Of a stretch of DNA of 64,000 bases, positions 6,111 through 49,251 are shown piece after piece (position 1 is the stretch's first letter; the number at the start of each line of letters is the position of its first letter). The stretch is from the NCBI GenBank assembly GCA_016927595.1, contig JAFGMI010000038.1, positions 1 to 64,000 on the forward strand, given 5' to 3'. The notes beneath the pieces were generated by a model. The model saw nothing but the letters and a program-made list of their open reading frames with translations. It was not told the DNA's origin and made no database searches. Origin of the DNA: Melioribacteraceae bacterium (lineage in GTDB: Bacteria; Bacteroidota; Ignavibacteria; Ignavibacteriales; Melioribacteraceae). Position numbers and translations under genes: made by a program.

Positions 6111-6974
6111 TTAATCTTCGAGTACTCTTTTTAAATAATTCTTATAGAAACAGTCCGGAAGAGATTGTACCAAATCTTCGAACTGAGAGTGCGATATAAA
6201 CTCTTTTTTATACGCTATCTCTTCGAGGCATGCTACTTTCAAACCCTGTCTTTCTTCAATAACACCGAAAAAGTTCGAAGCCTGCAGCAATGCTTCCGGA
6301 GTTCCCGTATCGAGCCAGGCAACTCCTCGTCCTATCATTTGTACATTCAACTGATTTTTCTCGAGATAAGTTCTGTTTACATCCGTAATTTCCAACTCGC
6401 CTCTGGCTGATGGTTTTAGTTTCTTTGAAATTTCAACCACCTGATTGTCATAAATATATAGCCCGGGCACCGCAAATTTCGATTTAGGTTTCCGAGGTTT
6501 TTCCTCTATTGATATCGCTTTTCCGTCTTTATCGAATTCAACTATTCCGTAACGCTGGGGATCGTTGACCTGGTAAGCGAAAATAGTGCCTCCGCTTGTA
6601 TGATTGTTAAACGCATCGTATAAAAAGTTAAACTTACCGTAGAAAATATTATCACCCAGAACCAGTGTTACTGAATCATCCCCGATGAATTCTTCACCCA
6701 AAATGAAAGCCTCGGCAATTCCGTTCGGAGCAGGTTGAACTTTGTATTCAATTCTTAATCCGATCTGACTTCCGTTGCCGAAAAGCTGTTTGTATAAGGG
6801 TATTGTTTCGACGTTTGAAATTATTAATAATTCCTTTATTCCTCCCAGCATGAGAAGTGATAAAGGATAATATATTAATGGTTTGTCGTATATAAGGGTT
6901 AGCTGTTTGCTGTAAACCTTAGTGATCGGATACAGCCTGCTCCCGGCTCCGCCCGCAAGTACTATGCCTTTCAT
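6111..6974 (-). CDS. rmlA: Glucose-1-phosphate thymidylyltransferase
   Basis: A 287-residue nucleotidyltransferase that makes dTDP-glucose from dTTP and glucose-1-phosphate, the first step of dTDP-L-rhamnose and related sugar synthesis. It opens with MKGIVLAGGAGSRLYPITK (pyrophosphorylase signature), followed by KQLTLIYDKPLIYYPLS. Further on are LGDNIFYG (catalytic Asp), IEEKPRKPKS and WLDTGTPEALLQASNF, all characteristic of RmlA rather than GalU. Length agrees with the family. No rmlBCD partners lie in the window; neighbours are a DUF454 membrane protein and a secreted protein of unknown role. Confidence 0.93.
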   Translation of the reverse strand: MKGIVLAGGAGSRLYPITKVYSKQLTLIYDKPLIYYPLSLLMLGGIKELLIISNVETIPLYKQLFGNGSQIGLRIEYKVQPAPNGIAEAFILGEEFIGDDSVTLVLGDNIFYGKFNFLYDAFNNHTSGGTIFAYQVNDPQRYGIVEFDKDGKAISIEEKPRKPKSKFAVPGLYIYDNQVVEISKKLKPSARGELEITDVNRTYLEKNQLNVQMIGRGVAWLDTGTPEALLQASNFFGVIEERQGLKVACLEEIAYKKEFISHSQFEDLVQSLPDCFYKNYLKRVLED

Positions 6975-6985
6975 TTTAATTTCCC

Positions 6986-7786
6986 TTAATCATATACTGT
7001 AAAAAATCCGGATTTAATCAGTACTTCGTCTTCGTTATAGACCGAAAATTTATAATCGCCCGGTTGTGTGAATGTATAACTGAAGAACGCATCATTCCAA
7101 TCGGGATTCAAACTGTACTTTTTCGATTCCACGAATTCATCGTACTGGAATGCACGGTTCTTTTTTCTCCAGACATCTACCAGAAATTTGGATGTGTTAA
7201 GTGGCTTGTAATTATTTAACTGAATAAATACTTTGTTGCCGCCTCTGCTGATTGAAGTTGATCTCATAACACCGAGTGTTTCGCCGCCGACTAAGATTTT
7301 TTTACAGAATGTAATTTTACAATCATCATAGTAGGCGCTGCTTGTATTTCTGACCGGGTTTATAAATGATTCTTCGAATTTAATAGTTACCTGTTCGCCA
7401 GCGATTCTTGTCTGATCGGCAGCAATAAAATAAACTTCATATTTGCCGGTTTTGGTAAACTTATAATTATATGCAACGAATTTTCTTCCGTAACCGATAT
7501 TTATGGCTTTACTGTCGAATGGTTCGTATGAGTCACCCTCAAGTCTGTCGACGAAAAGATAAATAATATTTCCCTTAATTCTTGTTTCCTCGGGATCAAG
7601 CAGGACGTAAACAAAACTTCCCCAGGGTTTGATTTCCCACTCGTTTTTAGCCCCGATTGGTTCTCCGTCTTCAGTAAAACTGTCTGCAAAATAAACCTGC
7701 TGCGCTGATATGGTAGCGCTGATTATCAGAAAAAATAATATTGATGAAATAAATTTAATCACGCCGTTAGATTTTTTTGTTTTCAA
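6986..7786 (-). CDS. Exported protein of unknown function with two beta-sandwich-like repeats
   Basis: A 266-residue protein with an N-terminal signal peptide (hydrophobic run around residues 11-27, cleavage plausible after ISAQ). The mature part seems to contain two related halves: each has a stretch about a protein's response or posture (WGSFVYVLLD... and NKVFIQLNNY...) followed by a closing strand of the type FTKTGKYEVYFI or FTQPGDYKFSVYN. This suggests tandem Ig-like modules. It lies 11 nt upstream of rmlA on the minus strand. No function is recognised. Confidence 0.7.
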   Translation of the reverse strand: MKTKKSNGVIKFISSILFFLIISATISAQQVYFADSFTEDGEPIGAKNEWEIKPWGSFVYVLLDPEETRIKGNIIYLFVDRLEGDSYEPFDSKAINIGYGRKFVAYNYKFTKTGKYEVYFIAADQTRIAGEQVTIKFEESFINPVRNTSSAYYDDCKITFCKKILVGGETLGVMRSTSISRGGNKVFIQLNNYKPLNTSKFLVDVWRKKNRAFQYDEFVESKKYSLNPDWNDAFFSYTFTQPGDYKFSVYNEDEVLIKSGFFTVYD

Positions 7787-7849
7787 ATATACAGATTGTG
7801 GTTTTAAGATGTGAATGCAATTATGATGTCGCTTCAGGAATTATAAAAT

Positions 7850-9298
7850 TTATGATTTCCAGAAAGAAGGACTGAATATCAGCAGGATTGTAAATAATTC
7901 AAGTCTTCCCATAAGCATCAGCAATGAAAGAAACCATTTACCGAAACCGGGAATATGTGCAAAATTATAACTTGGTCCCACGCTCCCGATTGCAGGACCT
8001 ACGTTTCCAAGTGAGGTTGCTACCGAACCCATTGCCGAGAGGAAATCCATACCCACCAGCGACATCACAATCGTACCCAGAACAAAAATGAAAATATAGA
8101 AGAGGAAAAACGCCAGTATGTTTGATATTATGTCGCCTGGGACCGAAGATTCATTAAATCGGACCGGTATAATTGCCCGGGGATGTATTAAACGTTTAAG
8201 CTCCGAAAAACTGTTTTTGATAAGCAGAAGGTGACGTACTATCTTTACACCGCCGCCTGTAGAACCTGCACATCCGCCGATAAATAGTATCAGGAAGAAA
8301 ATTATCTGATATGATGATCCCCAAATTTCATAATCGGCAGTAACGTAGCCAGTGGTTGTTACCATCGAGACAACCTGAAATAAAGCATCCCTGAATGAAG
8401 TTTCCGGATTTGCATAGCCTTTAATAAACAGCGAAACGGCAATTACAATTGTGATAGTAAAAATTACTTTAAGGTAAAATTTGAATTCTTCGTTCGTCTT
8501 TAACACTGAAAATTTACCATGTAAAACATAATAATGCAGCGTAAAGTTAGTTCCTGCCAGCAACATGAATACTATTATTACATAATGAATAAAAGGCGAA
8601 TCGAAGTGTGCAATGCTAGCCTGCTTTGTTGAAAATCCCCCGGTTGCCATTGTTGTAAAAGCATGATTTACCGAATCGAATAAATCCATGCCGCCGGTCA
8701 TAAGCAAACCGATTTCAGCAATCGTTAATAAAAAGTAAATTATCCAGAGCCTCTTTGCAGTTTCGCGGATCCGCGGATGAATTTTATCCTTGGTCGGACC
8801 CGGCACTTCGGCAACAAAAAGCTGCATACCTCCTATGCCGAGTATGGGAAGAATAGCAAGTGAAAGCACTATTATACCCATGCCTCCCAGCCATTGGGTA
8901 AGACTTCGCCAGAGCAGCAGTCCGTGCGGCAGCGATTCGATATCATTAAGAATAGAAGCGCCAGTAGTTGTAAAACCCGACATTGTTTCGAAGAATGCAT
9001 CCGTGTAATTTGGAATCGAACCGTGAATTACAAACGGTATGGCGCCGAATAAAGACATAACTATCCAGCCGAGCGATACTACAATATATCCATCCCTTTT
9101 GCGAATTTCCTTTTCATGCCTGCGGGTCAGAAGGTAAATTATTAATCCGATGAGTGCTGTTGCTGATCCCGTGCTCAGCAAGATGTTCACATCGTTGTCG
9201 CTGTAGTATAATGAAAAAGGAATGCCCGCCATCATTGCCAGACCGTCCAGCATGATCAGGAAGCCAATAATATTTGCTATTAGTTTATAATTAAGCAT
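7850..9298 (-). CDS. trkH: TrkH/KtrB-family potassium uptake channel subunit
   Basis: A 482-residue membrane protein with the four-fold M-P-M layout of K+ translocating subunits. Selectivity-filter-like segments end in TTTGAS, MATGGFS, TTTGYV and LGNVGPAIGSVGP, each with the key glycine. Loops such as RSLTQWLGGMGIIVLS are typical of TrkH. Its start overlaps the trkA stop in a TGATG arrangement, so the two are translationally coupled. It should take up K+ across the inner membrane under control of the TrkA ring. Confidence 0.93.
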   Translation of the reverse strand: MLNYKLIANIIGFLIMLDGLAMMAGIPFSLYYSDNDVNILLSTGSATALIGLIIYLLTRRHEKEIRKRDGYIVVSLGWIVMSLFGAIPFVIHGSIPNYTDAFFETMSGFTTTGASILNDIESLPHGLLLWRSLTQWLGGMGIIVLSLAILPILGIGGMQLFVAEVPGPTKDKIHPRIRETAKRLWIIYFLLTIAEIGLLMTGGMDLFDSVNHAFTTMATGGFSTKQASIAHFDSPFIHYVIIVFMLLAGTNFTLHYYVLHGKFSVLKTNEEFKFYLKVIFTITIVIAVSLFIKGYANPETSFRDALFQVVSMVTTTGYVTADYEIWGSSYQIIFFLILFIGGCAGSTGGGVKIVRHLLLIKNSFSELKRLIHPRAIIPVRFNESSVPGDIISNILAFFLFYIFIFVLGTIVMSLVGMDFLSAMGSVATSLGNVGPAIGSVGPSYNFAHIPGFGKWFLSLLMLMGRLELFTILLIFSPSFWKS

Positions 9299-16284: not shown

Positions 16285-16419
16285 CAGGTGAAACCGCTTA
16301 AAATATAATCCAATCTAAATATAAAAAACATAGAATATTAATACTATAAATTATAATAATTAATATTTATTAGTAATTTCAGAAACCTTAAACAAACACA
16401 GACAGTCATTTATATTGCG

Positions 16420-16440
16420 TTTGTTCATGGAATGAACAAA
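16420..16440. repeat. Perfect 9-bp inverted repeat, possible operator
   Basis: TTTGTTCAT, a 3-nt GGA spacer, then ATGAACAAA. The symmetry and the short spacer look like a binding site for a dimeric regulator. It is about 140 nt upstream of the lamin-tail gene start. No regulator is assigned. Confidence 0.5.
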
Positions 16441-16713
16441 TCGATGAACCTTATTAAATTCTTAATAGTGTCTTTAAATCTCGCTGTATTTTATCACCGG
16501 ATGATCATTGCTATTTCAATTTTCATGTACCACAATGCGTTTTCCTTAAGACTCGGTATAAGGAAAACAGGCTTGAAACATATCGAATATGAATAGATCC
16601 CACAGCTATTTACAATCTGCATAATGAAGCTGATATTTAACTGAAGGGTTGCTCATAAATATTTTCAGGAACTCATACTCAGATATGTGATTTTAAATAA
16701 TAAGCTGCAGTTA

Positions 16714-16760
16714 CGCATCAGATTGAACCGGCGCTACGGTTCAGATAGGTCGCATCAGAT
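16714..16760. repeat. Hairpin flanked by 10-bp direct repeats
   Basis: CGCATCAGAT occurs at 16714-16723 and again at 16751-16760. Between the copies lies a 7-bp stem, TGAACCG / CGGTTCA (16724-16730 and 16737-16743), with a 6-nt loop. It sits about 120-165 nt upstream of the SpoIID-like gene. There is no U-tract, so it is not an obvious terminator. Confidence 0.45.
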
Positions 16761-16878
16761 ATCATCCTCTTCTGAAAAAGCGGATTAAAATTATTAAACG
16801 TATATATAAATCACTTAACTATAGATTTTCTAATTATTATATTGCAAGCCTTAATAATAACAGTGTAATAGTGCGGAT

Positions 16879-18222
16879 ATGAAAGAGCCCGGCATCAGTG
16901 TATGCATAATGCACTCAAACGAAATAAGGTTTGATCTTTACGGAGAATACAGACTGGCTGGATCGAAAAAAAAATTCAGTGGCAAGCTTACCGCATCTCT
17001 TGCAGAAGGTAAAATCCTTATCGATGACGGCAAAGTCAAGTTCGGAATAGAGAACGGAGCGGTATTTAACGCCGGAGATATTGACACGGATTCATTTCTT
17101 CTTAGAGATGTTACAATCGGGATTCAATTCCACTGGCAGAAAAAGGAAAACCAGAGATTTGCCGGATCACTCAAATTTCTTATTGAAGACAATCAGCTGG
17201 CAGCTGTAAACATAGTCCCGATAGAACATTATTTAACAAGTGTTATATCATCCGAGATGTCGGCAACAAGTTCGCTCGAACTTCTTAAAGCTCACGCAAT
17301 CATTTCGCGAAGCTGGGTTCTTGCTCAGATTGAAAAAGGAAAGGAGATCAGAGCCGCCGAAAGAGTATATGAATCCGGCGAGACAAGTGACAATGAAATC
17401 ATCAAATGGTATGACCGCGAGGATCATACTTTATACGACGTTTGCGCTGATGATCATTGCCAGAGATACCAGGGCGTTACCAGACTTCACGCTCATAATG
17501 CAAAAACGGCAGTCGACCTGACACGCGGTCTTGTGCTGATGTATAACAGAAAAATATGTGATACGAGGTTTTCAAAATCTTGCGGCGGCATAAGTGAATC
17601 ATTCGAAAATGTATGGGAACCAGTTAAACATCCGTATCTCAGAAGTATTATCGATTATAAGTTTGAACCGGAAGATTACGACTTGGACTTAAGAAAAGAA
17701 GAGAATGCAGAGAAATGGATTATGGGAAATCCGCATGCTTTCTGTAATACCAGCGATCAAAAGATACTGAAACAAGTGCTGGTGGATTATGATCAGAATA
17801 CGAAGGACTTTTTCAGGTGGACTGTTGAATACACGCAGGATGAAATTGCAACGATGATTGAGAAGAAATCCGGCATCAATTTTGGGAATATACTTGACCT
17901 TGTTCCTGTTGAACGCGGCGATTCAGGAAGGCTCATAAAACTTAAAATCGTCGGTTCAAATAAAACAATGACTATAGGCAAGGAGCTTGAAATCAGAAGA
18001 TTCCTTTCCGAATCGCATTTATACAGTTCGGCAATAATAATTGAAAAGAAAGATATTAATAACGGCATCCCTCAAAAGTTTATACTGCACGGAGGCGGCT
18101 GGGGACACGGTGTGGGCTTGTGCCAGATAGGTGCCGCCGTTATGGGGGAAATGGGATATGTGTTCGATGAAATTCTTCTGCATTACTTCAGAGGCGCAGT
18201 TATTAAAAAATATTATGATTGA
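16879..18222 (+). CDS. SpoIID/LytB-domain protein
   Basis: A 447-residue protein of the SpoIID/LytB family, which covers peptidoglycan lytic transglycosylases and amidase enhancers. The core signature is IEHYLTSVISSEMS followed by LLKAHAIISRSWVLAQ, and the C-terminus has HGGGWGHGVGLCQIGAA. The central region holds FSKSCGGISE, another conserved family block. Interestingly no signal peptide is visible at the N-terminus (MKEPGISVCIMHSNEIR), so export is uncertain. It is followed 29 nt later by the BatA/VWA gene. Confidence 0.85.
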   Translation: MKEPGISVCIMHSNEIRFDLYGEYRLAGSKKKFSGKLTASLAEGKILIDDGKVKFGIENGAVFNAGDIDTDSFLLRDVTIGIQFHWQKKENQRFAGSLKFLIEDNQLAAVNIVPIEHYLTSVISSEMSATSSLELLKAHAIISRSWVLAQIEKGKEIRAAERVYESGETSDNEIIKWYDREDHTLYDVCADDHCQRYQGVTRLHAHNAKTAVDLTRGLVLMYNRKICDTRFSKSCGGISESFENVWEPVKHPYLRSIIDYKFEPEDYDLDLRKEENAEKWIMGNPHAFCNTSDQKILKQVLVDYDQNTKDFFRWTVEYTQDEIATMIEKKSGINFGNILDLVPVERGDSGRLIKLKIVGSNKTMTIGKELEIRRFLSESHLYSSAIIIEKKDINNGIPQKFILHGGGWGHGVGLCQIGAAVMGEMGYVFDEILLHYFRGAVIKKYYD

Positions 18223-18251
18223 TAAGTTTATATTAATTCGCAGAACGGTTT

Positions 18252-20339
18252 ATGATATTTCTTAATCCCGCGGTATTACTGGGGCTGATTGCTTCTTCCA
18301 TTCCGATTTTAATTCATCTGCTGAACCTCAGGAAATTAAAGAGAATAGAATTCAGCACTCTTGCATTTCTGAAGGAACTTCAGAAGACAAAAATCAGACG
18401 GATAAAACTCAAGCAGTGGATACTGATGATTCTGAGAGTGCTGATAATAATGTTTCTGGTAATGGCTTTTGCCCGACCTGCACTTAAGTCGGTTTCATTC
18501 GGTATGTCAGCCGGTGCAAAGACCACCGGTGTGATAATTATTGATAACAGTTTCAGCATGTCTGCCGTTAATGAACGGGGTTCGCTGCTTAATCAGACTA
18601 AATTACTTGCTAAACAAATCCTTGATGAATACAGCGAGGGAGATGAATTAGCGGTTTTGGATTTCAGCAGCTTAAATGAACCGTTAGCTGCAGTTACTAA
18701 AAGTGTTATTGCAGAGGAAATGATTGACGGGATTGATTTTACATATCTCGCCGGGGATATTTATGAATTGATTGTGAAAGCCTTGCCGGTATTGAATAAT
18801 TCACAGAACTATAATAAAGAACTTTATATACTATCGGATCTGCAGCAATCCGGATTTCTTTTAACCAATGATACAACACGAATACCAGTTTTCCGGAGCA
18901 TGAAAATTTATATTGCTCCGATTGTGAAAGAGAATATAAATAATCTTTCAGCTGCAAATCTTGTGTCGAACAACCAGATTTTCGAATTGAATAAAAACAT
19001 TACATTCAGCGCAGATATATTCAATCCATCATCATACAATATAAGCAACAGTGTTGTTTCACTATATGTTAACGGGAAAAGATCAGCTCAGAGCAGTGTG
19101 AATATTACTCCGGGCGAAACGATTCAAACAGAATTCGAAACGGTTATACAATCCACAGGTTTAATTGATATCTTTGTTGAACTTGAGGACGACGATATCA
19201 ATTTCGACAACAGACATTATCTGAACATTTACGTTCCCGAAAAAATTAATATCCTTTTACTTACTGATATTAAAAGTGACGCGGAATATGTTAGCACAGC
19301 ACTCCAAAGTGTTTCAGAGGATTATTTCAAGGTAACTGAAGACATGGCGAACAGGCTGAACAGCTACAATATCAGCAGTTATAACGTCGTTATATTAATC
19401 GGTTCTTCGTATCATTCAAATTCCGAAAAGGTGAAAACTTATCTGGAATCGGGCGGGAGTGTTATTCTTTTTCCGGGCAGCAGTTCGGACAATACAGATT
19501 TCAACAGAATCTGCAGGGAGCTTAATCTTCCGCAGGCAGAAAGGATAGTTACTTTTGATGATCCTCAATCTTTTTCTTCTTTCGAAGGAACTGATCTTAA
19601 TCATCCGGTGTTTTCGGATTTATTTGAAAGCGGCAAACGGGAGTATGAATCGCCAAGACTTTATAAATATTATAAAACGGAAAGCAGTGGTAAAGGAAGA
19701 AGTATTATATCACTTATTGACGGTTCTGAATTTCTGAGCGAGTACAATTATAAAGCTGGTAAAATATTTCTTTTTAATACATCACCCGTGTTAAGCTGGA
19801 GTGATTTTCCACTTAAGGGAATATTCGCACCAATGCTTAGTAAATCGGTTTATTATCTGCTCAATTCGAACAAACCTAATAAAAATTATATTGCCGGCGC
19901 CGATCTTATGATTAATGCAGGCAATGTAGTACGACCGGATATTAAAGTAATAAGACCTGATAATACAGAGGAATATATCAATCCGGATATTTCAGGGTTC
20001 AACAACACGTTCAGTTATTCACCGGCGGATTTTATCGGTACTTATAAATTTTATTCGGGCAACAAATTATTCGACTATGCTACAGTTAATTTTAATCCCA
20101 TTGAATCTCAGACAAAATACCTTGGATTTTCAGAAGCCGAAGAGAAAATAACACCTCTATCACAAGACACGGAAATAATCGAACTGAAACCGGGAGAAAA
20201 TGTTGCGGCAACCATATCAAGCGCAAGATTCGGTACTGAATTGTGGAAATATTTCCTGATAATTGTTTTATTACTGGCACTGATTGAGATGTGGGTTGCA
20301 AAAAATACTAAAAAAGACTTAAGTGAGATAACCAATTAA
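18252..20339 (+). CDS. BatA/VWA-domain membrane protein
   Basis: A 695-residue protein. The N-terminus (FLNPAVLLGLIASSIPILIH, LRKLKRIEFSTLAFLKEL, QWILMILRVLIIMFLVMAFARP) is the two-helix BatA/aerotolerance-regulator N-terminal domain. A von Willebrand A domain follows with a MIDAS-like DNSFSMS at about residue 97. A middle glutamine-amidotransferase-like stretch and a C-terminal membrane helix (about 665-685) complete the layout. Members take part in envelope stress or aerotolerance complexes, but their biochemistry is unsettled. The stop lies 2 nt before hflX, suggesting co-translation. Confidence 0.83.
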   Translation: MIFLNPAVLLGLIASSIPILIHLLNLRKLKRIEFSTLAFLKELQKTKIRRIKLKQWILMILRVLIIMFLVMAFARPALKSVSFGMSAGAKTTGVIIIDNSFSMSAVNERGSLLNQTKLLAKQILDEYSEGDELAVLDFSSLNEPLAAVTKSVIAEEMIDGIDFTYLAGDIYELIVKALPVLNNSQNYNKELYILSDLQQSGFLLTNDTTRIPVFRSMKIYIAPIVKENINNLSAANLVSNNQIFELNKNITFSADIFNPSSYNISNSVVSLYVNGKRSAQSSVNITPGETIQTEFETVIQSTGLIDIFVELEDDDINFDNRHYLNIYVPEKINILLLTDIKSDAEYVSTALQSVSEDYFKVTEDMANRLNSYNISSYNVVILIGSSYHSNSEKVKTYLESGGSVILFPGSSSDNTDFNRICRELNLPQAERIVTFDDPQSFSSFEGTDLNHPVFSDLFESGKREYESPRLYKYYKTESSGKGRSIISLIDGSEFLSEYNYKAGKIFLFNTSPVLSWSDFPLKGIFAPMLSKSVYYLLNSNKPNKNYIAGADLMINAGNVVRPDIKVIRPDNTEEYINPDISGFNNTFSYSPADFIGTYKFYSGNKLFDYATVNFNPIESQTKYLGFSEAEEKITPLSQDTEIIELKPGENVAATISSARFGTELWKYFLIIVLLLALIEMWVAKNTKKDLSEITN

Positions 20340-20341
20340 AT

Positions 20342-21610
20342 ATGATAGAAATAGATAATAATAGGATAGAAAATGCAATTCTCGTCGCAGTCAGAAAACC
20401 CGATGAATCAAAACAGGTAATCGAAGAGCATCTTAACGAACTTGAAATGCTTGGTGAAACAGCCGGTGCCCAGACGATTATTAAAGTAATTCAGGACAGA
20501 GCTAAATACGACTCTGCTTATTTTATCGGTAAGGGAAAAGCTGAAGAACTTGCCGAACTGGTTGAGTTAAATGATATAACCCTCGTTATATTTGATGAGG
20601 ATCTTAATCCGACACAGGTCCGGAATCTTGAAAAACTGATCAACAAAAAAATTTTAGACCGCAGCGGACTAATTCTCGATATTTTCGCTTCACATGCAAA
20701 AACAAAACAGGCAAAGACCCAGGTAGAGCTGGCACAGCTTCAATATATGCTGCCGCGGCTGACACGTGCATGGACACACCTTTCGAAACAATTCGGAGGT
20801 ATTGGTACCAAAGGACCCGGCGAGACACAGATTGAAACGGACAGAAGAATTATTCGTACAAGGATAAGCAAGCTGAAAGAAAATCTGCGTAAAATCGAAT
20901 CGCAGAATATTACAAAGAGTATAAACAGGAAGAGTTTTCTTAATGCAAGTCTTGTGGGATACACGAACGCTGGTAAGTCCACATTAATTAATCTGCTTAC
21001 AAATTCGGAACTTTTAGCGGAAGATAAACTTTTTGCAACACTCGATTCAACAACAAGATCGCTTGAACTGGATAAAAACAGACAAATTATGATCAGCGAT
21101 ACAGTGGGATTTATAAGAAAACTGCCGCATAACCTTGTAGAGTCGTTTAAAAGTACGCTTCAGGTTGTAAACGACGCTGATATAATACTGCACGTGGTTG
21201 ATATCTCGCATCCGTTTTTTGAAGATCATATCAAAGTGGTTGCCGATACATTGAAAGAACTCCATTGCGATGGGAAGCAGCAGGTGAAGGTTTTCAACAA
21301 GGTTGATTTGCTTGAAGATAATACACGAATTGATTATGTGCTTAATAAGTATCCCGACGGTATTGTTATATCAGCGCAGCGCGGTATAAACATCACACAA
21401 TTGAAAAATAAACTTATGAGTATGTATGAAGAGAACTTCCGCGAACATACTCTCAGGCTGAATATAAATGACGGCAAAACTGTTGCGTTCATACATTCGA
21501 TAGCAGAAGTGATATCGACAGTTTATGAAGAAGACTACGTGGAGATTAAATATAAAGCCGATAAGGATAATCTGAGTAAAATTGAAAAGCTTACAGCAGG
21601 TCGTGCATAA
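20342..21610 (+). CDS. hflX: Ribosome-associated GTPase HflX
   Basis: A 422-residue GTPase. The N-terminal HflX domain (about 1-195) contains the diagnostic GGIGTKGPGETQIETDRR. The G domain has the P-loop GYTNAGKST (G1), DTVGFIRKLP (G3) and FNKVDL (G4). HflX splits or rescues stalled 70S ribosomes, especially under heat stress. It directly follows the BatA/VWA gene. Confidence 0.94.
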   Translation: MIEIDNNRIENAILVAVRKPDESKQVIEEHLNELEMLGETAGAQTIIKVIQDRAKYDSAYFIGKGKAEELAELVELNDITLVIFDEDLNPTQVRNLEKLINKKILDRSGLILDIFASHAKTKQAKTQVELAQLQYMLPRLTRAWTHLSKQFGGIGTKGPGETQIETDRRIIRTRISKLKENLRKIESQNITKSINRKSFLNASLVGYTNAGKSTLINLLTNSELLAEDKLFATLDSTTRSLELDKNRQIMISDTVGFIRKLPHNLVESFKSTLQVVNDADIILHVVDISHPFFEDHIKVVADTLKELHCDGKQQVKVFNKVDLLEDNTRIDYVLNKYPDGIVISAQRGINITQLKNKLMSMYEENFREHTLRLNINDGKTVAFIHSIAEVISTVYEEDYVEIKYKADKDNLSKIEKLTAGRA

Positions 21611-42206: not shown

Positions 42207-43940
42207 TCAGTAATTGATCTTTAGTTTTTTCATTTTCCTCCACAAAGTTGAAGTATTGATTCCAAGATAATCAGCCGTTTGTTTTCTGTTCCATTTGTTT
42301 TTATCGAGTGCGGATATAATAACTTCCCGCTCCGTATTATTAATTTTAGATAGAATCCTGCTTGATTCCGATTCGACTACCGGAACCGTATTGAGTCTGA
42401 GTCTTTTAGGCAAATGCTCGGGTTGAATAATGTCGCTGCTGCATAGTATAAAACAATGTTCAATTACGTTTTCAAGTTCTCTGATATTTCCTTTCCAGTC
42501 GTATTCAAGTAAAACATCGTAAGCTTTTGAGTTAAATTGCTTTATGTTCTTGCCGAACTTTTTGTTAAAGTGTTCGATAAAATGGTTTATGAGTAACGGC
42601 AGGTCGTCCCTCCTCTCTCTGAGAGGGGGAAGGTGAATATTTATAACATTGATTCGATAATATAGGTCATCCCTGAATCGTCCTGCAAGTATTTCATCCG
42701 TTAGATTTTTATTTGTTGCGGCAATTATTCTTGCATCGGTTTTAATGTTCTTTGTTCCTCCGACTCTCTCGAATTCGAGGGTTTCAATTACCCGAAGAAG
42801 TTTAGTTTGTACGCTCGGTGTCAGGTCGCCGATTTCATCAAGAAAAATTGTTCCGCCACGGGCGAGTTCAAACCGCCCAATTTTAGTCGTTATCGCTCCG
42901 GTAAAAGCGCCTTTTTCATGTCCGAAAAGCTCGCTCTCAATAAGAGATTCAACAAAGGCGCTGCAATTAACGGTTACAAAAGGTCCGTTGCGGCGCAGAC
43001 TGTTCAAGTGAATAGCTCTTGCGGCAAGTTCTTTCCCCGTACCGCTTTCACCTGTTAAAAGAACTGTGCTATTCGTATTAGCAACACTTTCAAGCACTGC
43101 TACAACCTGATTTAATTCCTTGCTCTTGCCGATTATGTTTTCAAACTTGAATTTTTCGATTAAATGGTCGGATAAATTTTTCAGCTCAGTGATATCCATA
43201 AAAGTCTCAACAGCACCGCACTTTTCATTTTTATCATTTGCAAGTACGGACGAGTTAACCTTTATCGGTACCTTTCTTCCCGACTTATGAATTATTTCCA
43301 ATTCGTTTCCTATACTTGCTCTTCCGTTGTGCATGGTGCTCTCCATGTGACAGCCGTTACGGCATTTGTTGGATCTGAATATTTCCCAGCATTTCCTGCC
43401 TATAGCTTCGGACTTATTGTAACCGGTTATCTTCACTGCTGAATTGTTGAAAGAAGTTATAGTCCAGTTCTTATCTATAGTGAAAGTACCTTCTATGTTG
43501 CTGTTAAATATTGCATCGAGTTTATTTCGCTCGATGATAAGTTCCAGTGTTTTAGCTTCAAGATTTTCGTACATGGTTATCATTTCCTTGGTATCCCTGA
43601 AAGTCAGAACGGCACTTATCGGTTTATTTTCTTTTCGTATCGGATTAATGGAAGCCAGAACATTTTTTTTAGTATTGTTTGCGCATGTAATATTGATTGA
43701 CAGATTTGAAAACGAACGGTTTTCAAGAAGACATTCTGAAATAATTCCCTTATCCTCTTCGGAATGTCTGAATAATACATCGTAATTACCGCCCAGTATC
43801 TCTTCTTCGGTAAATCCGGTTATTCGTGATGCGGCTTCGTTAAACACAATAACATTTAAATCCTTACCGATTACAACAATAGCGTCGGGAATTACCATTA
43901 CTTCTTTGTTTTTATCAATTAAGCCAACAACATCTTTCAT
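42207..43940 (-). CDS. PAS-domain sigma-54-dependent transcriptional activator
   Basis: A 577-residue enhancer-binding protein. Two PAS domains (about 15-130 and 140-250) precede an AAA+ core (about 270-495) with [15 protein letters not shown] (Walker A), [12 protein letters not shown] (sigma-54 contact loop) and [11 protein letters not shown] (Walker B). A Fis-type helix-turn-helix lies at the end ([20 protein letters not shown]). The second PAS carries [17 protein letters not shown]; the clustered cysteines could hold a redox-sensing metal site. It is divergent from the DUF89-headed operon, whose upstream region has sigma-54-type sites, so that operon is its likely target. Confidence 0.93.
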
Positions 43941-43970: not shown

Positions 43971-44035
43971 TTGCAAAATAAGAATAATATTGCAGGAAAG
44001 AAACTAAATGCAACATATAATTGCATTAATGCAAT
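43971..44035. promoter_or_regulatory. Cluster of TTGCA/TGCAA half-sites, possible enhancer for the sigma-54 activator
   Basis: Five half-sites occur in 65 nt: TTGCA at 43971 and 43990, TGCAA at 44009, TTGCAT at 44021 and ATGCAA at 44029. The last two form a perfect 16-bp palindrome, ATTGCATTAATGCAAT (44020-44035). They lie 50-115 nt upstream of the -24 element, the usual place for sigma-54 enhancer sites. A dimeric Fis-type helix-turn-helix protein such as the divergent regulator is the natural candidate to bind. Confidence 0.6.
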
Positions 44036-44083
44036 ATCTCCAAAAGAATTATTTGATTATTCACTAATAAAAAACAGAAAATA

Positions 44084-44099
44084 TGGCACTTCTCTTGTT
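44084..44099 (+). promoter_or_regulatory. Sigma-54 (-24/-12) promoter
   Basis: TGGCACTTCTCTTGTT compares with the consensus TGGCACGNNNNTTGCW: the -24 GG element is exact, and the -12 element has GT where GC is usual. Transcription would start near 44110, and a GGGAG ribosome binding site (44120-44124) and ATG (44130) follow at the right distances. The divergent sigma-54 activator supports the call. Confidence 0.65.
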
Positions 44100-44129
44100 G
44101 TAATTAGAATTCTAAATACGGGAGAACTA

Positions 44130-44993
44130 ATGTTTTTTGATCCGGCGTGTATTCCATGTATTATCAATCAGGCACATAAAACAGCATTATTATTTACAAA
44201 TGGCAACAAGGATTTACAGCTCAGCATATTGAAAAAAGTATGCAGAGAAGTTGAAAAGGTTGGTGATGAATGTACCGCTCCGCAATTTTCCAGGACATTA
44301 CAGGAAATAGTTGAAGAGAGTTTGGGAATATTCAACCCTTACAAAGAAATCAAAGAGAAAAACCTGGCAGCTGCAAAGAATTATATTCCTTTTCTTCAAT
44401 CGCCGCTGAACAACATAAATGATAAAATAGAAATTGCTGTCCGGATTGCAATAGCGGGGAATATAATCGATATAGGAGCCAATCCTGGATTTAATCTGGA
44501 AGATGAGATAAGCAGAATTACTTCAAATAATATTGATTTACTGATGCTGCCGAAATTCAAGAGGGATCTTGAGAAGGCAGAGTCGATATTATACATTGGT
44601 GATAATTACGAAGAAGCATTATTCGATAAATTTCTTCTGAATGAATTGAGACCGAAAAAAGTAGTCTTTGCCGTCCGTTCAAAACCTATCTTAAATGACA
44701 TTACACTCGAAGATGCATACAGACTTGAAATAGATAAAATTTGCGACGTGATGGAAAGCGGCAGTAAAATTGCCGGTACAGATTTGAATGCATGTACCGA
44801 TGAATTTATGAAAGTATATAAAAATGCCGATATGGTTATAGCAAAAGGTCAGGGCAATTATGAAACATTAATAAATGCAGAAAGACCCATTTATTTCCTT
44901 TTTAAAGTAAAATGTGATGCAATCGCAGCTAAATCAGGTTACCGGAAAGGAATGGGGGTATTATTATATAAACGACGAATTAACGAGGTTTAA
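44130..44993 (+). CDS. ARMT1-like DUF89 protein (AF1104-type damage-control phosphatase family)
   Basis: A 287-residue protein starting MFFDPACIPCIINQA. I choose ATG 44130 because GGGAG sits 5 nt upstream and because the frame 5' of it overlaps the promoter and enhancer sites. DUF89 motifs are YIGDNYEEALFDKFL (metal-binding GDN), VRSKPILNDITLEDA and MVIAKGQGNYETL. Family members are metal-dependent phosphatases acting on damaged metabolites or sugar phosphates; the substrate here is unknown. A CxxC near the N-terminus is typical of this subgroup. It is the first gene of the sigma-54 operon, with 1 nt to the next. Confidence 0.85.
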   Translation: MFFDPACIPCIINQAHKTALLFTNGNKDLQLSILKKVCREVEKVGDECTAPQFSRTLQEIVEESLGIFNPYKEIKEKNLAAAKNYIPFLQSPLNNINDKIEIAVRIAIAGNIIDIGANPGFNLEDEISRITSNNIDLLMLPKFKRDLEKAESILYIGDNYEEALFDKFLLNELRPKKVVFAVRSKPILNDITLEDAYRLEIDKICDVMESGSKIAGTDLNACTDEFMKVYKNADMVIAKGQGNYETLINAERPIYFLFKVKCDAIAAKSGYRKGMGVLLYKRRINEV

Positions 44994-44994
44994 A

Positions 44995-46344
44995 ATGAAA
45001 CATTATGATATTGCAATTATCGGAGGCGGTCCAGCGGGAGTTGCATGTGCCATTTCAGCAAAGAATACTCATCCCGACAAAGAAGTTGTATTGATACGGA
45101 AGGAAAGTAAACCGATGGTACCATGCGGTATTCCGTACACACTTTTTACACTGAATCAAGTCAGCGATAATATTCTACCCGACACACCATTAGAAAAAAA
45201 TAAAATAAATGTTATTGACGATGAAGCAGTAGGCAGAACTGACCATAAAATACTATTGGCTGATAATGGTGAGATTGAATTTGAAAAACTTGTGCTTGCA
45301 ACCGGATCAAAAGCTGTACTGCCGAATATCGAAGGAGTCGATAAGGAAAATATTTTCTTAGTCCGTAAAAATATGGAATACCTCGAGAATCTGAAATTAA
45401 AGCTAAAAGATGCAGAAAATGTTGTAATTCTTGGAGGCGGGTATATTGGAGTTGAAGTTGCAGACGAATTATTGAAAAGCGGAAAAAAAATTACAATTGT
45501 TGAAATGATGGATTTTTTACTGCCTTCGATGGATAATGAATTCGGCGAAAAGGTTGAGGAAATTATTAAAGGCAAAGGCGGCAGAGTTATCACAGGAAAA
45601 AGTGTTCAAAAAATATTAGGAAGTAATAAGGTAAGCGGTGTTGAGTTAAATGATGGTTCGGAGATCGGATGCGACCTGTTGATAATTTCTTGCGGTTATA
45701 AACCCAGTATCGAGTTGGCTGAAAAATTTAACCTTGTGTGTGAAAAAGGTAAAGGGATACTGGTCGATGATTATTTACGGACTTCTGAAAAAGATATTTT
45801 CGCCATTGGCGACTGTGCAGCAAAATACGATTTCTTTACTGGTGAATTCTCGAATATAATGCTTGCTTCAACTGCAATGGCTGAAGGACGTTTAGTCGGC
45901 TCCAATATTTACTCAATTAAAGTTATAAGAAAATACCAGGGCGTATTAGGTACGTTTTCAACAAAAATAGGGGACACTGCTTTTGCATTAAGCGGAATTA
46001 CAGAAAGGCGTGCAAAGGAAAGGGGACTGGAATATACAGTCGGTTTTGCAAAAGCGGTAGACCGTCATCCTGGCAAACTTCCCGGAGCAGCCGAGATGAC
46101 AGTAAAACTCCTTTTTTCTACTTATTCACATCAACTGCTCGGCGCCCAGGTTATGGGTGGTGATTCAGTCGGTGAATTAATTAATATGGCTTCGGTAATG
46201 ATATTAAATAAAATGACAGATACGGATATTGATACGCTGCAAATAGGTACTCATCCTTTGCTGACGCCGTCGCCAATTGCATACCCGGTAATTAATGCAA
46301 CTGCCGATGCAATAAAAAAATGGTATAAATATCAAAGCGCTTAG
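44995..46344 (+). CDS. CoA-disulfide/persulfide-reductase-like FAD-NAD(P) oxidoreductase
   Basis: A 449-residue flavoprotein. ATG 44995 is favoured by GAGG 7 nt upstream and gives the FAD motif IIGGGPAGVACA right at the N-terminus. The active-site Cys44 lies in MVPCGIPYTLF, the signature of CoA-disulfide reductase, NADH oxidase and NADH persulfide reductase. NAD(P) binding is in VVILGGGYIGVEVADELL and the second FAD motif in DIFAIGDCA. The C-terminal dimer domain is complete and lacks the rhodanese extension of some persulfide reductases. Within this operon it probably reduces a disulfide or persulfide. Confidence 0.88.
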   Translation: MKHYDIAIIGGGPAGVACAISAKNTHPDKEVVLIRKESKPMVPCGIPYTLFTLNQVSDNILPDTPLEKNKINVIDDEAVGRTDHKILLADNGEIEFEKLVLATGSKAVLPNIEGVDKENIFLVRKNMEYLENLKLKLKDAENVVILGGGYIGVEVADELLKSGKKITIVEMMDFLLPSMDNEFGEKVEEIIKGKGGRVITGKSVQKILGSNKVSGVELNDGSEIGCDLLIISCGYKPSIELAEKFNLVCEKGKGILVDDYLRTSEKDIFAIGDCAAKYDFFTGEFSNIMLASTAMAEGRLVGSNIYSIKVIRKYQGVLGTFSTKIGDTAFALSGITERRAKERGLEYTVGFAKAVDRHPGKLPGAAEMTVKLLFSTYSHQLLGAQVMGGDSVGELINMASVMILNKMTDTDIDTLQIGTHPLLTPSPIAYPVINATADAIKKWYKYQSA

Positions 46345-46345
46345 G

Positions 46346-46756
46346 ATGACTCCGGACAGAAAAAAAACACTATCGGTTATATTGGTGATTACGGCAGCCC
46401 ATTCTTTAGCAGTCGGTATAGGCTTGATAATAATGCCGGCTGCATTAATAAATTTTTTCGGGTTTGCAGAGGTGACCGAAAGATTTTTCCCTTCGCAGGG
46501 AGGTGTGTTTCATATTGTTATGGCGGCAGGTTATGCGATGGCTGCTTATAATTCAAACAAATGCGATTGCCTGATACAGTTCTCAGTTTTTGTAAAATTC
46601 TGCGCTACGTTTTTTTTACTGATTTATTTTTTGTTTTTTCTACCGGTGTGGCTTGTGTTGGTATCATGTGTAACCGATTTTATTTTAGGCTCCGCTATAT
46701 TAATTGCCTATCGTTCGAATAAAAATTTATTGGTACGCGGTAATATCATTGAATAA
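46346..46756 (+). CDS. Four-helix membrane protein of unknown function
   Basis: A 136-residue protein, 1 nt after the flavoprotein. About four membrane segments are visible (around 8-30, 48-66, 76-97, 98-120) with few polar residues between them. A conserved-looking FFPSQGGVFHIVMAAGY recalls small DUF4345-like membrane proteins, but I cannot make a firm assignment. Its place inside the operon points to a link with the redox system. Confidence 0.6.
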   Translation: MTPDRKKTLSVILVITAAHSLAVGIGLIIMPAALINFFGFAEVTERFFPSQGGVFHIVMAAGYAMAAYNSNKCDCLIQFSVFVKFCATFFLLIYFLFFLPVWLVLVSCVTDFILGSAILIAYRSNKNLLVRGNIIE

Positions 46757-46760
46757 AAAC

Positions 46761-48383
46761 ATGGTAAAAATAGTGATTACGGGAGCTTCCGGTTTTGTAG
46801 GTCGCTATGTGATCGACAACCTGAAAGAAGAATACATTTTGTATGCTGTAGCCCGGCGTTCAAGAAAAGAAGCTGATATTCCGTATCATCAGAATTTAAA
46901 CTGGATACAATGTGATGTTGCCAAAACAGATTGCCTTAATGAGGTTGCAGGTTATTTAAAATCAGAAGGAGGTGCCGATTTAGTTATACATCTGGCAGCT
47001 TACTATGATTTTACAAATCAATATAATCCGGAATATGACCGGACTAATGTCGGCGGCACTAAAAACGTTCTTGAGTTTGCAAGAACAATCGGTGCAAGCC
47101 GTTTTATTTTTGCCAGTTCTCTCGCAGCCTGTGAATTTCCGAAAAAGGGTGAATCTATTAATGAAGACTCGTTGCCGGATTCCGAATGCGAATATGCCAG
47201 AAGCAAAAGAAAAGGGGAGTTGCTGGTCCGGGAATATTCAAAATATTTTCAGTGCGTTGTGGTGAGACTTGCTGCAGTTTATAGCGACTGGTGCGAATAC
47301 GCTCCTCTGTATAAATCTCTTTCAAAATGGTTGTCGAATGATATGGATTCCCGAATTCTTGCGGGCAGGGGAGAATGGGCAGTTCCATACATTCATGTTC
47401 ACGATGTCTGTTCATTCATAAGAAATATTATTAGGGGAGAAAACCTAGCTGGTTTTAATATTTACAATTGCAGCTTCGACGGATCAACATCTCATAAAGA
47501 ACTATTTGCAATTTCTACCAGGTACTATTTCGGTGAAGCCGTTAATCCCTTTTGCCTGCCTAAAATTATTTTATATCCGGGGCTGTTTTTAAAATATCTT
47601 ATGAAATATCTGCACATCTCATGCGAGCTGCCGTTCGAAAAATTCTGGATGATGGAATATATAGACCGGAAGCTGGAGGTTGACTCTTCACGCACAAGAC
47701 AGGAACTGAACTGGGAGCCTGCTCCCCGATATCATATTAAAAGGAGATTATTATTTCTTCTTGAAAAAAGAAAAAGTCATCCGGATGTATGGAAAATTAA
47801 AAATGAAGCTGCTTTAAAAAAGGTAACCAGAAGAATTAACCTTCTTATTTATGAAGAGCTTCTGAAACAGAAGGAATCTGTACTAAATAAAATATCGGAA
47901 AGAATTCTTGATGAAAACAAAAACAATTTCTTTTCATTATATAAAAAACTGGACCGTGAAGATTTTTTATGCTACATGAGTACATTATATCATCTGATAA
48001 TGGCGTCGGTTAGAAGCGGTGACAGAAGTTTGATGCTGAAATACATAGATGATATTGCCATAAGAAGGTTTGCAGAAGGTTTTGAGCCGGATATATTAAT
48101 AGGAACGCTGAATGTATATAAAGAAATAATTTTCGAACACCTTATATTAAATGAAGAACTGCTCAAACTAAAGCGTGAAATTTATAATTATATCGGGTTG
48201 AGTTTACAGATAGCACAGGATGAGATTGAGGATCTTTATGAGGAACTGATCAGAAAAATGTCTCTGGAAAAATTAACCGAATCCTCTCTGTTGCCTGATT
48301 GTGCAGAGCTGAGAAAGATGATTCGCCAGTTAAGTGCCTTCTATCAAATTTCACCGGATAATGAAAAGCTCAATGATAATTAA
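46761..48383 (+). CDS. NAD-dependent epimerase/dehydratase fused to an RsbRD_N-like domain
   Basis: A 540-residue protein. The first ~310 residues are an extended short-chain dehydrogenase: VITGASGFVGRYVID (NAD-binding), FIFASSLAACE and YARSKRKGE (the YxxxK catalytic pair). The last ~190 residues are all-helical and resemble the RsbRD N-terminal (RsbT co-antagonist-like) domain: ISERILDENKNNFFSLYKKL, SVRSGDRSLMLKYIDDIAIR and RFAEGFEPDILIGTLN. This is a rare combination. An ATG at 46704 in frame is possible, but it would overlap the previous gene by 53 nt, so I prefer 46761. It lies 4 nt after the membrane-protein gene. Confidence 0.78.
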   Translation: MVKIVITGASGFVGRYVIDNLKEEYILYAVARRSRKEADIPYHQNLNWIQCDVAKTDCLNEVAGYLKSEGGADLVIHLAAYYDFTNQYNPEYDRTNVGGTKNVLEFARTIGASRFIFASSLAACEFPKKGESINEDSLPDSECEYARSKRKGELLVREYSKYFQCVVVRLAAVYSDWCEYAPLYKSLSKWLSNDMDSRILAGRGEWAVPYIHVHDVCSFIRNIIRGENLAGFNIYNCSFDGSTSHKELFAISTRYYFGEAVNPFCLPKIILYPGLFLKYLMKYLHISCELPFEKFWMMEYIDRKLEVDSSRTRQELNWEPAPRYHIKRRLLFLLEKRKSHPDVWKIKNEAALKKVTRRINLLIYEELLKQKESVLNKISERILDENKNNFFSLYKKLDREDFLCYMSTLYHLIMASVRSGDRSLMLKYIDDIAIRRFAEGFEPDILIGTLNVYKEIIFEHLILNEELLKLKREIYNYIGLSLQIAQDEIEDLYEELIRKMSLEKLTESSLLPDCAELRKMIRQLSAFYQISPDNEKLNDN

Positions 48384-48429: not shown

Positions 48430-49251
48430 ATGGACGAACATGAAAAACAAATTGCATTAGAAGAAGAAAAGATCGATAAAACTATAAGTAAAATTAAACA
48501 CAGGATTGCCGTATTCAGCGGTAAAGGCGGTGTGGGTAAAACTACCGTCAGCGTTAATCTTGCTGCAGGTTTTCAATCACACGGAAGTTCTGCAGGAATT
48601 TTGGATGCCGATATTACAGGACCGAATGTAGCTAAAATGTTGGCAATACACGATGATGCAATAGTCCTTGACGGCTCGATTATTCCATTCGAAAAATACG
48701 GTTTGAAGGTCATTTCAATAGCCAGCATGATAAAATCAGGTCAGCCGGTTATCTGGCGTGGTCCTATGCGTTCTAAAGTAATAAACCAGTTCCTGGCTGA
48801 TGTGATGTGGGGCGACCTCGATTATCTTATAGCTGATCTGCCTCCTGGTACAGGTGATGAAATACTAACAATTGCTCAGAAAATGAAACCCGATTGCGCA
48901 GTAATTGTAACTACTCCTCAGGAAGTTTCTGTAATTGATGCTGAAAGAGCCGTTAATATGGCAAAAAAAATGGAAATTCCTTATATAGGAATTGTGGAAA
49001 ATATGGCAGGTTTTACTTGTCCTAGTTGCGGTGAAAAAATTGACCTGTTCGGTACCGGAGGCGGTGAAGAATTGGCATCGAAGGAAAATGTTCATTTTCT
49101 CGGTTCAATTCCGATTGATATAAATGCACGTATTCTCGGCGATAAAGGAATACCGGTAGTACTGCATCAACAGGATTCAGATATGGCAAAAACTTTTACT
49201 GGTATAACGGGTTTAATTGAAGATCATTATAAAATATCTCAGCAAGTATGA
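48430..49251 (+). CDS. Mrp/NBP35-family Fe-S carrier ATPase
   Basis: A 273-residue P-loop ATPase with the deviant Walker A FSGKGGVGKTTVSVNLAAG, LDADITGPN, and LIADLPPGTGDE. The C-terminal Cys pair is in TCPSCGEKIDLFGTGGG and bridges a [4Fe-4S] cluster at the dimer interface. The N-terminal MIP18-like domain of some Mrp proteins is absent. Mrp of this sort is the partner ATPase of the NifX-like Orp proteins in sulfate reducers. In this context it probably assembles or delivers a metal-sulfur cofactor. Confidence 0.9.
   Translation: MDEHEKQIALEEEKIDKTISKIKHRIAVFSGKGGVGKTTVSVNLAAGFQSHGSSAGILDADITGPNVAKMLAIHDDAIVLDGSIIPFEKYGLKVISIASMIKSGQPVIWRGPMRSKVINQFLADVMWGDLDYLIADLPPGTGDEILTIAQKMKPDCAVIVTTPQEVSVIDAERAVNMAKKMEIPYIGIVENMAGFTCPSCGEKIDLFGTGGGEELASKENVHFLGSIPIDINARILGDKGIPVVLHQQDSDMAKTFTGITGLIEDHYKISQQV

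Follow-up and report, generated by a model that had tools for sequence, protein, structure and literature searches.

A recurrent bacterial protein family joining an extended short-chain dehydrogenase to an RsbRD_N-like domain of predicted globin fold

Can one bacterial gene encode a short-chain dehydrogenase (SDR) and, behind it, a domain related to the sensory module RsbRD_N, and what would such a protein do? The question is raised by a gene in a 64,000-nucleotide stretch (hereafter the window) of contig JAFGMI010000038.1 from a Melioribacteraceae bacterium. The original prediction, made from the letters alone, placed an SDR half and an RsbRD_N-like half in a single gene. This is confirmed by the reading frame, which is free of internal stops in translation, by the PF01370 match of the first half and by profile–profile alignment (hhalign) of the second, and the two-domain architecture can be regarded as secure (Table 1). 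An alternative TTG start at 46704 would add 19 residues. Full-length relatives with 57–63% identity are found in four of 38 related genomes (own genome aside), and in one of the four an in-frame TAG interrupts the gene. In the orthologue recorded as L005, L034 and L039, a single in-frame TAG lies between the SDR and C-terminal halves, and because of it the halves appear as separate frames.

Table 1. Coordinates of the SDR–globin gene, its parts and its neighbours in the window
Feature	Position	Strand	Basis or remark
Whole gene, SDR plus RsbRD_N-like	46761..48383	+	open frame and translation: 540 residues and stop
Extended SDR domain, residues 1–335	46761..47765	+	PF01370 and AlphaFold model
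Cofactor motif GASGFVG (G8, G11, G14)	46782..46802	+	alignment of 69 family members
Catalytic YxxxK, Y145 and K149	47193..47207	+	both in 69/69 family members
RsbRD_N-like sensor-globin domain, predicted haem-less, residues 342–499	47784..48257	+	hhalign and globin-fold matches of the model
RsbRD_N-type signature R..EGF...[E], residues 436–445	48066..48095	+	alignment of 69 family members
C-terminal tail, residues 500–540	48258..48380	+	SLLPDC and QLSAFYQ stretches kept in alignment of four close relatives
PAS plus sigma-54 activator, divergent	42207..43940	-	PF00158, E 5.2e-69
ARMT1-like damage-control phosphatase	43971..44993	+	PF01937, E 2.5e-55
FAD/NAD(P) pyridine-nucleotide disulphide oxidoreductase	44914..46344	+	PF07992, E 1.8e-63
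Small hydrophobic protein, 136 residues, QGGVFH motif	46346..46756	+	recurrent partner family
Mrp/NUBPL-type Fe-S carrier ATPase	48430..49251	+	PF10609, E 8.6e-94

Judged by its motifs, the first half is an intact extended SDR with complete cofactor and catalytic motifs, as had been predicted. Residues 4–236 match PF01370 at E 6.5e-31, and the AlphaFold model made from 69 family members (the window protein included) shows the extended-SDR fold with a mean pLDDT of 88.6. Among the matches listed, UDP-glucose 4-epimerase and RmlB-type structures align with the SDR model over ~300 residues (Z ~31). These enzymes have fold and motifs in common with the window protein at only about 15–22% identity, and the window protein adds the globin-like extension. 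Both hallmarks of extended SDRs, GxxGxxG and YxxxK, are present in the family alignment: G8 is kept in 68 of the 69 members, G11 and G14 in all, S119 in 67 and S120 in 68. Arginines after strand 2 of the SDR fold generally favour NADP(H). Two such residues, R32 and R33, are kept in 67 to 69 of the 69 members and, by this rule, the enzyme probably prefers NADP(H). None of the 25 listed NCBIfam models (45 gave a match) reaches its cut-off, the best being HpnA with 61 versus 367.65 bits; therefore NCBIfam provides no substrate assignment.

The C-terminal ~190 residues are all helical in the model, with helices between residues 326 and 529. Their best Pfam match is RsbRD_N (PF14361), yet the segment stays below the curated cut-off (16.7 versus 24.3 bits, E 0.012), and so do four relatives (18.3, 15.7 and 18.9 bits, and one without a match). 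In full-length scans, a single one of the 69 family members, not the window protein, reaches E 0.01 for RsbRD_N. The second domain tends to escape annotation because its scores fall below standard cut-offs. The relationship appears when profiles are compared. A PF14361 scan of 39 genomes gave 18 places, of which L121 had no usable stretch, leaving 17 RsbRD_N domains. Aligned with these by hhalign, the 69 family members score 62.5 (probability 96.6%, E 4.7e-10; 100 columns aligned). The controls stay far lower: none of 60 column shuffles exceeds 16.5, and reversing the profile gives 14.0. A second run with other cuts gave a probability of 97.1% and E 7.3e-11. In the reciprocal direction, a search of 164 genomes from the order with the C-terminal-domain profile recovers six of the 18 PF14361 places. 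A simple model of the 17 domains returns rows for 50 of the 69 family members, 25 of them at E ≤0.001 (set size 20,000), and none for the window protein. The family also carries an RsbRD_N-type signature, R..(E)G....E, with R436 in 65, G440 in 57 and glutamate at position 445 in 58 of the 69 members; the corresponding R and E never vary among the 17 RsbRD_N domains, and the window protein itself has isoleucine at 445. RsbRD_N usually comes before its output domain, STAS or another, whereas here the domain is C-terminal and ends the protein. Searches of PDB sequences with the segment or with profiles gave nothing credible. Taken at the profile level, the C-terminal half is a homologue of RsbRD_N, with a resemblance well above chance. 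The predicted likeness to RsbRD_N thus stands on hhalign and reciprocal matches, and fails by Pfam score.

Structure prediction gives this half a globin-type sensor fold. A model of residues 342–531 alone (mean pLDDT 81.8) matches globin-fold proteins, namely phycobiliproteins, the haem-less sporulation inhibitors 3pmc and 3pmd and the stressosome sensor 3zta; the globin-type helical fold of non-haem sensor globins is seen in it. The values include Z 14.2 for 3pmc (rmsd 2.5, 131 aligned) and Z 13.9 for 3zta (rmsd 2.5, 127 aligned), the three haem-less structures spanning Z 13.9–14.2 among the best-ranking matches listed, in a range near 14 that can occur by chance in helical folds. Foldseek found no match of the C-terminal model in the PDB at E 0.001. 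At the end of the protein, confidence drops below 50 from residue 530 on. Haem binding was considered and judged unlikely. In the alignment columns of the globin core, no histidine is conserved, the maxima being 18 of 69 (position 475) and 17 of 69 (position 411). A family-wide haem sensor is unlikely because no core histidine is present in more than 18 of the members. Ahead of the core, position 345 is histidine in 32 of the 69.

Globins of this kind have precedents. According to PMC6614362, the RsbR N-terminus is a non-haem globin, and the RsbR-type entry 2BNL is named there. PMC11617747 describes the N-terminal domain of MabR (Rv2242; PucR family) as a sensor globin without haem and reports phycocyanins, RsbR and pXO1-118 as its nearest structures, a set very similar to that of the window domain; MabR joins its globin to a transcription factor, whereas the window protein joins it to an SDR. 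Stressosome sensors of the RsbR type (3zta) have the haem-less globin fold and the RsbRD_N-type profile in common with the C-terminal domain, but in them the domain precedes STAS and in the window protein it comes after the SDR. A haem form of the sensor globin occurs in Vibrio RsbR, as reported in PMC9237108. The haem globin-coupled sensors DosC, BpeGReg and AfGcHK have the overall fold in common with the window domain (Foldseek rows), place the sensor before the output domain and, unlike the window domain, bind haem. Among the open-licence papers listed, none was found on an SDR united with an RsbRD_N-type or haem-less globin, or with a hydrogenase; the photoglobin survey PMC8717448 may mention it, and in PMC5701242 the two components stand in separate gene tables.

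The pairing is a recurrent family, not a one-off fusion. A single-sequence scan of genome contigs with the window protein found no relatives; an alignment-based scan succeeded. Seeded with two SDR peptides, the scan of contigs gave 289 relatives, and the analysis covered the best 80 by a ranking that favours longer matches. Though the seeds were SDR peptides only, the C-terminal domain is present in 77 of these best 80 of 289, and both halves share one frame in 76, the halves of L039 occupying two frames because of the TAG. The three exceptions end at a contig edge (L088), are disrupted (L093) or consist of the SDR half alone (L112). Thus, the original prediction, which knew of no such standard architecture, is qualified by the domain survey: both halves recur in 77/80 of the best relatives. 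By record titles and tree labels, the best 80 of 289 come from about ten phyla, and include Ignavibacteriota, Bacteroidota, Neomarinimicrobiota, Desulfobacterales, Zixiibacteriota, Calditrichota, Acidobacteriota, Myxococcota, Krumholzibacteriota, Planctomycetota and others. Pairwise distances of the two halves correlate (r 0.86), which is consistent with old joint inheritance, and the C-terminal half diverges faster (mean distance 0.67 versus 0.52 for the SDR half). Strong matches to the C-terminal domain (E <1e-32) occur in 20 of the 164 genomes of the order, and 17 of these 20, selected by that domain, have frames of at least 447 residues. A sample of the phylum has the domain in six of 296 genomes, and presence is patchy overall. 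Plasmids gave no match to the gene pair. In Neomarinimicrobiota (L073, L078–L086 and L097), two SDR-globin genes stand in tandem, and first and second copies fall on separate tree branches.

A recurrent companion of the gene is a small membrane protein. In the window, the SDR-globin frame begins four bases past the stop of its gene, and the protein, without a Pfam family at E up to 1, probably has four transmembrane helices, counted by eye. Leaving the window aside, 74 loci could be judged (those with a target frame recognized, among the best 80 of 289), and in 49 of them a member of this membrane protein's family directly precedes the gene in the same orientation; of the remaining 25, four start within 400 bases of a contig edge. 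Other members of the same-strand run encode a peroxiredoxin, a multihaem cytochrome, a CGGC protein, FeMo-cofactor-like proteins, an Fe-S ATPase and a ferritin-like protein. The predicted redox operon is a fair description of gene content; most of the genes scanned around it are of redox or Fe-S type. The further proposal, that the protein may feed a signalling module, finds no support in the neighbours scanned: no STAS or RsbT-type kinase domain is among the families listed for the 12 scanned window neighbours, and the nearest regulator, the PAS/sigma-54 activator, is on the opposite strand. As a whole, the predicted interpretation is partly supported, in its SDR, its RsbRD_N homology and its redox neighbours; the link to a signalling pathway stays a proposal.

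Other lineages offer another context. Hydrogenase or formate-dehydrogenase genes ([NiFe] large subunit, hydrogenase protease, [FeFe] hydrogenase, formate dehydrogenase or FdhE) lie in 36 of the best 80 of 289 loci, a count neither complete nor made of independent cases because many contigs are short and the loci are related. Sequence clusters gave 34/80; a profile search confirmed L096 and added L046 and L108. Cluster names come from Pfam on one member each, and the catalytic gene of formate dehydrogenase was named by eye. With groups assigned from record titles (for a few records by similarity), such genes occur in 16 of 16 loci of Bacteroidota, 11 of 14 of Neomarinimicrobiota, five of eight of Desulfobacterales, one of one of Anaerolineales (the SDR-only locus L112), one of three of ‘Deltaproteobacteria’ (L096) and one of six of Acidobacteria (L108), and in only one of 17 of Ignavibacteria, the window's own group (L046). 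In this last locus, an Ignavibacterium record whose hydrogenase was missed by the first cluster count, a membrane, complex I-like hydrogenase lies at 16322–21515, ~7 kb downstream (PF00374 E 1.7e-20; PF00346 E 2.9e-67). In L108, an Acidobacteria record, the hydrogenase genes near the family were found by profile (locus 6372–8000). The gene order in Neomarinimicrobiota is small subunit, Fe-S protein, NrfD, large subunit, protease and membrane protein, followed by the two tandem copies. No [NiFe] hydrogenase was found in the window's own genome, which has four [FeFe]-hydrogenase places, all on other contigs; for the window gene itself, a hydrogenase link would be an analogy with other lineages.

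In 13 Bacteroidota loci (L053, L054, L056–L058, L060, L062, L063, L065–L068 and L111), the SDR, the globin-like domain and an [FeFe] hydrogenase form one frame of 1103–1119 residues, convergent with genes for a hydrogenase protease and [NiFe] hydrogenase. The sole fused protein scanned by Pfam (L053) matches PF02906 at E 3.7e-95, and all 13 intact fused frames match stand-alone HydA; two further Bacteroidota fusion loci are split (L055) or damaged (L093). All 13 fusions have the H-cluster motifs TSC.P.W and MPC..K..E, and 11 of them have the third motif by a strict pattern. The first reads TSCSPxW in 12 of the fused frames and TSCCPAW in L060; proton transfer is the role of the second cysteine. 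The fusion likely arose once, because the 13 fusion rows of the 69-row tree (12 intact fusions and L055) are set apart from all others by a single branch (support 95/78). Within these proteins, the globin-like domain directly precedes the hydrogenase, thus keeping the order usual for sensor globins, sensor then output. The fusions contain the HydA part of HydABC-type enzymes, and NuoE/NuoF-type genes and a stand-alone HydA are close by in nine fusion loci; in contrast, HydA of HydABC is without the N-terminal SDR and globin-like domain, and the window gene is without the hydrogenase part.

What, then, may the protein do? We lean, tentatively and at rather less than even chances, towards an SDR that depends on NADP(H) and is coupled to a haem-less globin, for sensing or for docking, in the service of anaerobic redox enzymes. 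The extended SDR would bind NADP(H) in its intact active site; the globin domain would sense a small ligand or dock a partner, altering SDR activity or assembly; the membrane protein would anchor the SDR-globin protein near the membrane; and the module as a whole would tune a system of anaerobic redox enzymes to the state of the cell's NADP(H) or membrane. Substrate, signal and direction of this coupling are what we infer. RsbRD_N homology, the predicted globin fold, catalytic residues kept in at least 67/69, the C-terminal domain in 77/80, the upstream partner in 49/74, hydrogenase or formate genes in 36/80, the fusions to hydrogenase and sigma-54 activators in 25/80 speak for such a module; the sub-cut-off RsbRD_N score, the missing row for the window protein with the RsbRD_N model, the absence of a Foldseek match at E 0.001, Z values that chance can produce, the single locus of 17 in Ignavibacteria, the window genome's lack of a [NiFe] hydrogenase, the SDR-only L112 and an NADP preference read from a general rule speak against it. 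For the sigma-54 activators, the density in 13 related genomes would predict ~6.6 of 80 loci, a rough guide as thresholds and taxa differ. A wider version of the coupled module, rather unlikely in our estimate, is a cross-phylum regulator of anaerobic redox enzymes, in which the SDR would read or set the cofactor state and the globin would relay it to hydrogenase or formate dehydrogenase with the membrane partner, all joined in the hydrogenase polypeptide in Bacteroidota.

The main competitor, doubtful yet a serious possibility, is an ordinary metabolic SDR acting on a sugar-nucleotide, lipid or quinone, with a globin-like domain that dimerizes or docks and senses nothing. Conserved catalytic residues are expected of any enzyme, the C-terminal half diverges faster (0.67 versus 0.52), and the membrane partner, present in 50 of the best 80 of 289 loci, is more constant than sigma-54 regulators with 25; yet the relatives of the domain are sensor domains, redox genes surround the window gene and hydrogenase or formate genes accompany the family in 36/80 loci. 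Should signalling be all that the protein does, the SDR would be a catalytically silent sensor that reads the redox state of NAD(P)(H), and the globin would signal to a kinase, a sigma-54 regulator or a hydrogenase. Such a role would fit the direct fusion to hydrogenase and the regulators nearby (sigma-54 activators in 25/80 by phmmer and histidine kinases in 27/80, best 80 of 289). The kinase count, however, is a sequence cluster with one Pfam-checked member, and Y145 and K149, unchanged in 69/69, would not be needed by a pure sensor; we find this improbable. Nearly negligible, finally, is the chance that the C-terminal half is a generic helical bundle with an accidental likeness to RsbRD_N. 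Sub-threshold Pfam scores, Foldseek without a significant E-value and the missing row for the window protein with the small RsbRD_N model would suit a bundle; these are countered by the profile–profile score of 62.5 against a shuffle maximum of 16.5, by reciprocal matches, by the R..EG....E signature in common and by consistent globin-fold matches.

If the coupled SDR-globin module is real, a nicotinamide enzyme has a stressosome-type sensor domain wired straight to it, as does a hydrogenase in one lineage, and a connection of cofactor state with hydrogen metabolism could be tested in anaerobes that have received little study. The plain result alone establishes a family of two conserved domains whose membrane partner recurs.

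Several minor observations concern regulators and relatives of the family. A strict motif search for sigma-54 activators found 10 loci and was replaced by the phmmer count; a cluster-based count of 35 was dropped because short response regulators were mixed in. In the Neomarinimicrobiota loci and also in L107 and L117, a gene from a cluster of 14 loci stands beside a kinase and a sigma-54 regulator, and the one member scanned matches peptidase family M54. In the phylum sample, stand-alone proteins of ~150–185 residues (L161–L163, L165–L167, L170 and L172) match the C-terminal-domain profile and have a similar ending around a G.GK..LA..YVSLAS stretch.
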